Assembly (NCBI GenBank): GCA_030448245.1
Contig: JAUJNH010000006.1
Coordinates: 79,788 to 143,787 of the forward strand
Direction of reading: 5' to 3'
Length of the DNA: 64,000 nucleotides
Origin: Acidimicrobiales bacterium
GTDB lineage: Bacteria; Actinomycetota; Acidimicrobiia; Acidimicrobiales; JAUJNH01
The translations under genes and the position numbers were made by a program. This document shows, in pieces, positions 8,998 to 33,446 of the stretch (its first letter is position 1; each line of letters starts with the position of its first letter). The notes beneath the pieces were generated by a model. It was not told the origin of the DNA and ran no database searches. It saw only the letters and a list, made by a program, of their open reading frames with translations.

Positions 8998-9562
8998 GGG
9001 CTCGAGCCGCCGTCGGCCGGACATGTGCGGGTGCACGGGGTCGACCTCGACGGGTTGTCCCCGGGCCAGATGGCGGCCCTGCGCCGCACCCAGGTGGGCT
9101 ACGTCTTCCAGCGGCTGAACCTGGTGCCGAGCCTGACCGCGCTCGAGAACGTCATGTTGCCGCTCGAGCTTGACGGCATGAGCAGGAGGCTGGCCAGGGC
9201 CGAAGCCGAAGCGGCGCTGGGCGCGGCAGGCCTGGCCGGGCCCTGGGACCGCTACCCGGACGACTTCTCCGGGGGGCAGCAGCAGCGCATCGCCATCGCC
9301 CGGGCCACTGTCGGCAGCCGGTCGCTCCTCCTCGCCGACGAGCCAACGGGGTCGCTGGACACCGTCAACGCCGAGCTCGTCGTCGAGCTGTTGACCGAGC
9401 TCTGCGTGAGCCGGGGCACCGGCGGTCGTCCTCGTCACCCACGAGCCCCGGTTCGCCGCCTTCGCCGACCGGGTCGTGTTCCTGCGCGACGGCCGGGTCG
9501 CCGACCAGACCAGGGCGACCGACCGCGTCACCTCCGATCCCGTCTCGACCGCGGCTCGATGA
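8998..9562 (+). pseudogene. ABC transporter ATP-binding protein, truncated and frameshifted
   Basis: The frame starts abruptly inside the ATPase domain, at LEPPSAGHVRVHGVDLDGL, and lacks everything before it including the Walker A P-loop. What remains is the Q-loop (VGYVFQRLNLVPSLTALEN), the signature FSGGQQQRIAIARA, Walker B LLLADEPTGSLD and the H-loop. The H-loop (VVLVTHEPRF) is only reached after a one-base shift near 9419-9421. The type is LolD/MacB-like, which pairs with FtsX-type permeases. Its terminal TGA overlaps the ATG of the permease (ATGA), preserving the ancestral operon join. It cannot make a working ATPase. Confidence 0.85.
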
Positions 9563-11503
9563 TCATGGGGGCGCGGGTGAACGTCCATCGTGCCGCGGCC
9601 CGGCTGGCGGGCCGCGAGCTGCGCCGGCGGCCGTGGCGCACGGCGCTGGTGGTGCTCCTCGTGGCCGCGCCGGTCGCCGCCATGGTGCTGGCCTCCAGCC
9701 TCCTGCGCACCGCGCGTCCTCCTTTCGACCTGGAGGAGCGATCGACCTTCGGCCTGGCCGACGCCCTCGTCAGGGTCCGACCGGCCGCCCTTCGGGCCGT
9801 CGTCCTCTGGCAGGGTGCGTGGTCGGGCCTGCTCGGCAGCGCCGTGGGTCTGGTGATGGGCGGTCTCGGCCTGGCCGCGGCATGGCCCCATTCCGACCGC
9901 TTCCTCTCCTACGAGCCGCGCTGGTTCACCGTTCGAGCTGCAGATCTCGTGCCGATCGTCATGCTCGGTGCCGTCACCGCGCTGCTCGCCTCGTCGCAGC
10001 CGGCCCGATCGGTGAGCCGGCTCAGCATCCTCACGTCGCTCGCCGGCCGGCGGCCTCTGGCCCCTGTGCGCCCGCGGGTGGTGGTCGTCGGGATCGCGGC
10101 CATGTCCACCGGCACCGCCTTCCTCGCCGTGGCCACGGTCGGTGGCGAGGGGGGCGGAGCACCCAACCTGTGCGTCGGGATCAGCGTGCTCGGCGGGCTC
10201 GGGCTGCTGTTCGGGTCATCGGCGGTGGCGCCGGCGGTCGTCGGCCTCTTCGATCCGCTGGCCCGGCGCTTCCGGGGCAGCCCACTCCTCGCCCTGCGCA
10301 GCCTGGGCCGCCAGCGGGCCCGCACCGGGGCGGTGGTCGCCGCCGTCTGCGCCGCCGCCGCCCTGGGCCGTGGCCGCCAGCGCCATCCTGGTCTCGGTGG
10401 ATGAGGGCAACCAGGCCTACGTCCCGGCGAACCTCGCGCTCGTGCAGCGGCACAGCCTCGTCGAGCGAGCGACGCCGCTCGAGCCGGTACCACCGTTCGA
10501 CCCGGGGCAGTCGCCATCGGACCCGCCCCTGGCCCCCCGCTCGGAGCGGCTGGCCGAGGACGACCTTGCGGCCGTTGCCGGCGTCCTCCCGGGGGCGAGG
10601 CGCGTCGAGGTGGCCTACCCCTACGGGTTCCTCATCGCCACCCCCGAGGTGCTCGACACCTTTGAGATCGACGCGGCCACCCGGCGCCTCCTGAGCCAGC
10701 ACGGCGCGGTGCGAACCGGATGGCAGGACGAGACCGACCACGCGCGGCTGGCCGAGTACGGGAGTCCCTCTGGGGCCGGGCGAGGCCAGGACGGCAGCCC
10801 GTTCCAAGCCCAGGTGCAAGCGCTGGCTGAAGGTGCGGTGCGGGCACCCGCGAGCCGGTACACCTTCGTCAACCAGGCCACCCTCGTCAGCGTCGACCAG
10901 GCTGCTCGACACCAGCTGTCCGAGACCGGCCCGGCCGTCGCCTTTGTGTCCCCCCGACCCCTGACTGCCGCGCAGCGAGATCGGCTGAGCGACGTCCAGT
11001 CGGCGAACCGTGACTCCGGTCTCCGCCTCGCCTCGGCCTCGGCGCCGACGTACCCCTCCGACCGGTCCTTCGTCACCATCACGGCCGCCGACCCGGACCA
11101 GGTGCCCACCTTCGTGATCTACGCCGTGTTCGACGGGCTCGCCCTGCTGTTCACCGGCTTCGTGATCGTCGTCGGCCTGGCCCTGGCCGCAGCCGAGACC
11201 CGAGAGGAGGTCGAGGTGCTCACCGCCGTCGGCGCCTCGCCGTCGAGCCTGCGGCGCCTCGCCGCCACCAAGGCCGCCCTCCTGGCCGGCGCCGGCGTCG
11301 TGCTCGCCCTGCCCACGGGCCTCATCCCGGTCTGGGTCGTCCGCAACGCCTCCAGCGGCTCCAGCCGTTTCATCCTGCCGTGGGCCTCCCTGGGCCTCCT
11401 CGTCCTCGTCCTGCCCGCCACGCTGGCGCTCCTCGCCCTCGGCGGATCCGCGGTCCACGCCCGCTTCAGCCCGGTCACCGCCTCGACGATGACCGCCGAC
11501 TGA
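9559..11503 (+). pseudogene. FtsX/MacB-like ABC permease, broken
   Basis: The reading frame from ATG 9559 begins like a MacB-type permease (RPWRTALVVLLVAAPVAAMVLA). It jumps at about residue 75 from an N-terminal extracytoplasmic start to a mid-protein membrane segment (LWQGAWSGLLGSAVGLV), which implies a large internal deletion. Near 10365 a one-base shift is needed to continue into the frame that ends at 11503. That frame holds a second extracytoplasmic domain and the terminal FtsX helices (FVIYAVFDGLALLFTGFVIV, then LALAAAETREEVEVL). Together with the truncated ATPase it is a dead export or lipoprotein-release-type transporter. Confidence 0.8.
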
Positions 11504-12236: not shown

Positions 12237-13531
12237 TCATGCCGATCCCTGACAGAGCCTCGTCAGGGTGGCCCAGAACCCCGGAAAGGTCTTCGCGGCA
12301 CACTCAGGGTCTGCGATTTGGATGCCGGATGCCCGTAAGCCCAAGAGGGCGAAGCTCATTGCCATACGGTGGTCGCCGTAGGTCTCGATGGTGGCTGGGC
12401 GTGGCCTGCCGGGATGGATCACGAAGCCGTCAGCAGTCTCTTCGGCCGTCACGCCGCAACGCTCTAGTTCGATGACGGGGTGAGCGATGCGGTTCGTCTC
12501 CTTGTGACGAATGAAGCCGATGCCTCGCACCGTCGTCGGGCTGTCGGCGTGTACGGCTACGGCGGCCAGCGTCTGGGCGGTGTCGGAGAGGTCAGCAAGG
12601 TTCACGTCGACGCCGCGAAGGGTGCCCGTTCCTCGGACGGTGATGGAGGATGGCGTTCGCTCGACCTCGGCTCCCATCTGCTCCAGGATGTCAACGAAAC
12701 GAACGTCTCCCTGGACAGACGCTGCGGTCAGTCCGGGGACCGTGACCGAGCCGCCAGTGATGGCCGCCGCAGCAAAGAAGTACGCGGCAGCGGAGGCGTC
12801 CGGCTCCACTTCAAAGGCCGCTGGTTCGTATCCCGTCGGAGTGATGACGAAGCGCTGGTATCCGTCCTGTTCGACGGCGGCGCCGAAAGCTCGCATCACC
12901 GCAACGGTCATGTCCAGGTACGGTCGAGAAACGGCTTGGCCCTGCACCACGACGGTCAGCACGCCACCCGCTCGAGGTCCGGCCAGGAGGAGGCCCGACA
13001 CGAACTGGCTGGATGCAGACGTGCTCACTGTGACCGACCCCCCGGCATGCCGCGAGCGTCGACAACCACCGGCAGGTGGCCTGGCTGGCCCTCGCTGCTG
13101 ATGGTCACGCCCAGGGTGCGCAATGCATGAAGGCTTGGACCCATGGGACGCCCCCGCAGAGGCGGCGATCCGTCGAGTCGGTACTCGCCTTCGCCCAAGG
13201 CCAAGATCGGCAGCAGGAATCTCGCAGTCGTGCCGGACAGCCGAGCGTCCAGCTCGACAGGCCCTGGCGCGAGCCCGGCCACGCCGTCAACCGTCACACC
13301 GTTGGCCTCCGCCTGCAGGACGGCCCCGAGACGACCGAGGCAGTCGATCATCGCATCGGTGTCATCGGCTTCGAGCGCTCCACCGACGTAACTTCTGCCC
13401 GCCGCTAGGGCCGCCGCCACCAACGCCCGGTTGGTCCAGCTCTTCGAGCCCGGCAACTGCACGACTCCGCGGACCGGCCCCGAGACAGGCTGAACCTCAT
13501 AGGCGTCACCCATGGGGAGATACTGACCCAA
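12237..13531 (-). pseudogene. aroA: 3-phosphoshikimate 1-carboxyvinyltransferase (EPSP synthase), frameshifted
   Basis: Two abutting frames together encode a complete EPSP synthase of about 430 residues, which would join shikimate-3-phosphate and PEP in aromatic amino acid synthesis. The first part (from ATG 13531) has LPGSKSWTNRALVAAAL, the GTTARFLLPILALG motif and DGSPPLRGRPMGPSLHALR. The second, ending at 12237, has SSQFVSGLLLA, FVDILEQMGAEVE, the RHKETNRIAHPV motif and YGDHRMAMSFALLGLR. The break falls at a run of six G (six C on the plus strand, 13038-13043); one more G restores the frame as GMPGG-SVTVSTSAS. No motif is missing on either side, so the break is recent or is a sequencing error. 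Confidence 0.85.
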
Positions 13532-32432: not shown

Positions 32433-33446
32433 TCAGCCCGCCTCGGCCAGGCAGCGGATCTCGCCGTCGCGCAGGCCGTAGTAGACGAGCGTCAGGAGCT
32501 TGCGGGCGATGGCGACCCGGGCCTTGGCCGTGCCTCGCCGCTCGGCGATCCGAACGAAATCGGCTCGCCGCTTGGGGTCCTTGCGGCCGCAGGTGGCCTC
32601 GATGGCCGCCCACCGCACCAGCGTGGATCCCTGCTTGGTGATCGACCCCCGGTGCACGGTGGTGTCCGACTCGTGATGCTTGGGGTCAACCCGGCCCACG
32701 AGCACAGCTGCTTGGGCCCGGCGAACCGGGTGACATCACCGATCTCGGCCACGAAGATCGCCGCGAACCTCCGCCCAACCCCGTCGATCGCCTGGACGGC
32801 CTGGTAGCCGGCGTGGTCCTTCAACAGGTCGTGGACGAGGATCTCGAGGGCAACGATCTCCTCGTCGAACGCGCTGATCAGATCGCGGAGCGAGTCGATC
32901 CGCAACCGGTAGCAGTCGCCCAGGCGCATCTCGTCGAGCTGGGCCTGGCCGCCCGGGCCGAACATGTCGACTCGCTCCGGCAGCACACCCTCCTTGGCCA
33001 TCACCGCATGCACCTGGGCCTTCAACCCGCTGCGGATCTGGACGAGCTTGACCCGGTAGCGGACCAGCTCCCCGCAGCTCCCGCAACCCTGGTGGCGCCA
33101 CCCACGCCTCGGGCAAGCTGCCCAGCCGCAACAGGTCAGCGAGGAGGACGGCGTCCTTCACGTCGTTCTTGACCCGCCGGTTCGACATGATGCCCTTCAT
33201 CCCCAAGGGGTGGGCCAGCCCGGTGGAGCTCGCGCCGCACTCCTCGAGGACGTCCGCCGCCCAATACCACCCGTAGGTGGCTTCAACTACCACCTTCGGG
33301 TTCGGGCCCGCCGGGGCGATCGCCGCCGCCAACGACCTCGGGTCGTTGTCGATCTTCTCCGTCGACAGTCGCTCACCGTCAGGGCTCATCCGCACGATCA
33401 CCGACCGGCGGCGGTGCAGGTCGATGCCAACATATTCTGGTTCCAC
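32433..33446 (-). pseudogene. IS110-family transposase, two frameshifts
   Basis: From GTG 33446 the first frame has VGIDLHRRRSVIVRMSPDGE (first catalytic Asp), KVVVEATYG (Glu) and KNDVKDAVLLADLLRLG (DxxD), the DEDD RuvC-like set. A shift near 33080 leads to ELVRYRVKLVQIRSGLKAQ, AIDGVGRRFAAIFVAEIGDV and FAGPKQLCSWAGLTP. A second shift near 32690 (a shortened C run) leads to the C-terminal KHHESDTTVHRGSITKQGST with the conserved Ser, and ends at 32433. It belongs to the group that uses a structured guide RNA from the non-coding end. It cannot make a full-length protein. Confidence 0.8.

Follow-up and report, generated by a model that had tools for sequence, protein, structure and literature searches.

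The DNA analysed (the window) is a 64,000 nt stretch of the Acidimicrobiales bacterium assembly GCA_030448245.1, corresponding to positions 79,788-143,787 of the forward strand of contig JAUJNH010000006.1. On its minus strand lies an aroA gene, for EPSP synthase, that is read in two frames. Two labels coined in this analysis are used for the aroA lineages: type B is that of the window gene, and type A that of an intact aroA on contig C4 of the same assembly. The parts of the split gene, in window coordinates, are as follows.

12237..13028, minus strand: aroA (type B), C-terminal half, an ORF of 263 aa from a GTG codon
13025..13028, minus strand: GTGA, in which the first stop overlaps a possible second start, as expected by chance
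13025..13531, minus strand: aroA (EPSP synthase, type B), N-terminal half, an ORF of 168 aa with a TTG start and a TGA stop
13038..13043, minus strand: run of six G (C on the plus strand), the likeliest point of a one-base frame change, judged from the sequence and the single frame of the homologues

The N- and C-terminal halves cover consecutive parts of both family profiles, namely positions 1-141 and 148-413 of the 415 in NCBIfam TIGR01356, and 5-151 and 161-417 of Pfam PF00275. This implies that the split can be explained by a single one-base frame change, and confirms the sequence-only reading, which had described an aroA in two frames at the G6 run. The point at which the frame switches is bounded by the end of the N-half homology and the start of the C-half homology; the G6 run falls in this interval, past the aligned residues of the one half and ahead of those of the other, and is therefore its likeliest position. 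The frame of the C-terminal half is open farther upstream of the GTG, forming an open frame of 349 codons. Taken together, the two halves reach a whole-length match to TIGR01356, as would be expected of an aroA; unlike an ordinary member of the family, however, the window copy is in two frames, and its halves score 267.1 and 128.2 bits, each below the cut-off of 287.25.

The protein itself is well conserved. Near-invariant columns were defined as those common to at least 27 of 28 intact homologues, taken from 109 homologue loci; the window protein keeps 97 of 100 such columns and deviates at three, while the intact homologues, each left out in turn, deviate at between zero and nine (n = 28). 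The earlier description of both halves as well preserved and one base out of frame is thus borne out by profile coverage and conserved columns alike. No second lesion is observed, nor have conserved residues been lost, and a protein that is sound apart from the indel implies that the frame changed only very recently, if it really changed at all. An aroA that has been cut once with nothing else lost is not a chance pattern of ORFs, but similar single-indel cuts recur elsewhere in the assembly.

An intact second aroA and the two lineages

The assembly from which the window comes (G000; 3.26 Mb in 22 contigs, 92.8% complete) contains four stretches matching PF00275: the two window halves, murA (C4:398414-399643) and an intact aroA (C4:565831-567051). 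The last encodes 426 aa, scores 364 bits against the TIGR01356 cut-off of 287, and is flanked by ORFs with prephenate dehydrogenase and cytidylate kinase domains; over the C-terminal half, its identity to the window aroA is 34%. Among the explanations first offered for an interrupted aroA, the existence of a second copy therefore holds; aroC is likewise present, in one copy. The intact gene on C4 means that the shikimate pathway is independent of the window copy, which is dispensable given this functional paralogue, and that uptake of aromatics, the other metabolic alternative raised, need not be assumed. Loss of the pathway was rejected, as intact aroA and aroC are both present.

The distribution of aroA was studied by searching TIGR01356 against 59 genomes, comprising G000 and 58 others of its order, none of which belongs to its own genus or family. 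A match above the cut-off is present in 54 of the 59, and G000 is the only genome with two distinct aroA genes; the other second matches have scores at the level of murA. In another member of the order (G025), the single aroA match is found in two adjacent pieces (C317:1688-2885), the break lying elsewhere in the gene (profile positions 311/314).

In relatives, aroA of the type-B lineage is mostly found in an operon between genes for prephenate dehydrogenase and cytidylate kinase (for example L086, L087, L091 and L092); no such operon neighbour was found beside type-B aroA in other relatives (for example L088, L090 and L093), for which the flanks are small. A quick tree of 109 rows places the window aroA beside L086 (support 94, not starred), with both inside a starred set of 46 rows that are mostly actinobacterial. 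Across L086-L114, the two lineages appear to take each other's place in the operon slot, with one per genome, and both in G000.

Decay around the gene and frame changes across the assembly

The window aroA lies at the margin of a region of lower GC in which genes are broken. Between approximately 11.5 and 30 kb of the window, GC content measured in 1 kb steps is 0.62-0.72, mostly below 0.70, against about 0.73, and as far as 34 kb few genes fit the codon model. The stretch 11500-34000 is gene-poor and may be a genomic island; in it are two genes of the APH family, a protein kinase, a DUF2293 protein and an IS110 transposase that is read in three frames. The GC content at third codon positions (GC3) is 0.77 and 0.75 in the two halves of the window aroA, compared with 0.95 in the other aroA and 0.97 in two core genes, which we take to be rho and argS, as expected for acquired or neglected DNA. 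A plasmid-borne origin was rejected: six plasmid records matched, none over more than 80% of the query, and the five matches listed have 67-72% identity over 13-20% of it. Two remnants were identified in these surroundings.

9025..11503, plus strand: ABC transporter remnant, 1-4 kb from aroA, with an ATPase lacking Walker A, frame changes and a shortened permease
32433..33446, minus strand: IS110-family transposase remnant, in three frames

The transporter ATPase covers positions 52-136 of a profile of 137, such that the Walker A part is absent, and its frame changes near 9421. The permease has a frame change near 10366 that was confirmed with two homologues (L156 and L157), and its N-terminal part seems to be shortened relative to a homologue; only the collinear, high-scoring matches to these two loci were used in this comparison, with chance matches driven by composition being set aside. 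As larger deletions are not base-calling errors, part of the decay is real, unless the region has been misassembled.

Frame changes were surveyed with a home-made three-periodic codon HMM trained on G000. This called 15 in the 259 kb of C22, the whole of the contig that carries the window, and 40 in 140 kb of C4; with another training set the counts were 17 and 39, and in 20 kb chunks 19 and 45. In 100 kb from each of four relatives used as controls (G002, G006, G013 and G019) there were 8, 2, 1 and 6 calls, of which 2, 0, 1 and 3, respectively, lay no more than 220 bases from a chunk edge. The frame changes on C4 are clearly in excess, whereas the number on C22 is not clearly above that of the worst control. 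The HMM also makes false calls, with the six in G002 away from chunk edges approaching the rate on C22, and hence single calls need the support of homology. As to homopolymers, 9 of the 55 calls have a run of at least five no more than 15 bases away, compared with 7.5-8.8% of random places (binomial 0.02-0.05). At these rates, the chance of a call falling in a 1.3 kb gene is roughly 7% (C22) to 31% (C4). The window aroA is itself invisible to the HMM, which takes its low GC3 for non-coding sequence. By position, 6 of the 15 calls on C22 fall between 9 and 34 kb of the window, and none between 34 and 64 kb. The same contig contains four 100-base N gaps, from which it follows that the assembly has been scaffolded.

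Similar lesions are found in genes that should be indispensable. The sole gene for NAD-dependent DNA ligase, ligA, is in two frames (C22:186734-187921 and 187894-188673; L165 and L166), the pieces covering positions 1-397 and 389-651 of TIGR00575. This gene is essential in bacteria, and its reading in two frames is almost certainly an assembly error. The only copy of ilvC is likewise in two frames, at a run of five C (C22:213862-214110 and 214098-214796; L167 and L168), as is the main uvrA, at a run of five G (C4:618396-620849, positions 1-803, and C4:618034-618405, positions 801-924; L169 and L172). A further gene, presumably scpB, is cut at a G6 run. Separately, an oligopeptide ABC transport operon (C4:591284-596694) has 15 frame-change calls in 5.4 kb and is probably a poorly sequenced stretch; its binding-protein gene is in pieces, while a family search found seven other copies to be whole.

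Consensus error or real frameshift

It is very improbable that the window aroA functions despite its split, whether through slippage, ribosomal or transcriptional, at the G run or as two chains, produced by coupled translation, that come together as EPSP synthase. In favour of this are two intact halves, a frame change at the G run and a start of the second half that overlaps the stop of the first; EPSP synthase has also been engineered in two parts, with an intein (PMC4051838). However, the N- and C-terminal parts are in one frame in all 107 testable homologue loci, those of the 109 remaining once L058 and L069, which have no N-half match near a contig end, are left out, and a split common to a clade was rejected on this count. 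Nor is the run conserved: in the 54 bases upstream of the SSQ motif, the longest run reaches at least five bases in 28 of the 107 loci, and is not of G in all of these; it is four in the nearest homologue, L086. The RNA downstream of the G run folds no better than its shuffled counterparts (z = -0.18), and no stimulatory structure was found there. With neither conservation of the site nor a downstream structure, as would be looked for in programmed frameshifting, a conserved slippery site was rejected. The GTGA overlap is no sign of design, because A, G or T preceding TGA always gives a start codon in that frame. Less probable still is phase variation, through which changes in the length of the G run would turn aroA on and off, as the sequence-only reading had suggested. 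There is indeed a six-base homopolymer within the coding part, but such runs are unexceptional (the 399 kb examined include 234 runs of C or G that are six or seven bases long), there is no longer tract at the site, and the product is a metabolic enzyme of which an intact paralogue exists. With no homologue split and no run conserved at this position, the suggestion is unsupported; in the titles and abstract openings of the literature searched, neither aroA nor EPSP synthase is tied to phase variation. There is therefore no positive support for programmed frameshifting, for coupled translation or for length switching.

The interruption probably reflects an error of one base at a homopolymer in the assembly consensus, to which a probability of about 0.6 may be given on the basis of sequence comparisons. 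The true genome would then carry a second, divergent type-B aroA, unbroken and within the lower-GC region, in addition to the main type-A aroA in its prephenate dehydrogenase - aroA - cytidylate kinase operon, and one base missing from the consensus at the G6 run would split the reading of the type-B copy. Error is favoured because the rest of aroA is sound and because this contig also carries identical lesions in ligA and ilvC, genes that are hardly likely to be pseudogenes. A base-calling error was what the sequence-only reading had named as its own refutation, and the cuts in ligA, ilvC and the main uvrA point indirectly towards it. The aroA lesion resembles these others in affecting one base at a run while the gene is otherwise intact, as do the gene-fragmenting errors known from homopolymers, and would be of the same kind as the cuts in indispensable genes. 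Residual homopolymer indels giving rise to frameshifts are described as the usual defect of long-read-only assemblies (PMC8812927, PMC12007338); this bears on G000 if it is based on long reads. Not everything fits an error, however. An ATPase without Walker A and a shortened permease are beyond the reach of one-base errors, the transposase is in three frames, the HMM calls cluster in the part of the window around aroA, and the HMM rate on C22 alone does not stand out from the controls. A redundant gene with a GC3 so far below that of core genes is also a good candidate for real loss. It is thus possible that a one-base replication slip at the G6 run broke the redundant type-B aroA in a decaying region, making it a real and recent pseudogene. 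The intact second aroA, in the only one of the 59 genomes to have two, the lower GC, the truncated transporter and broken transposase nearby and the clustered lesion calls would all suit a frameshifted extra copy in a genomic island. Against this, the gene has a single lesion and keeps its near-invariant columns as intact homologues do, and the same single-indel lesion is present in genes that the cell would hardly have lost. Redundancy and the decaying neighbourhood nevertheless keep a real frameshift well alive, and both processes, error and decay, act in this assembly.

A bolder and somewhat doubtful reading, again drawn from sequence comparisons, is that this genome is in transition between two aroA lineages, with type A holding the operon slot and type B being lost by a real frameshift; bolder yet, slippage might still give an active enzyme. 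Without the sequencing reads, broken genes in this assembly should not be given a biological meaning, as its sole ligA and ilvC look broken too. A split in a spare aroA is in itself ordinary, given that the main copy is whole. Of mild interest is the presence in one genome of both aroA lineages, which elsewhere in the order are found one at a time.
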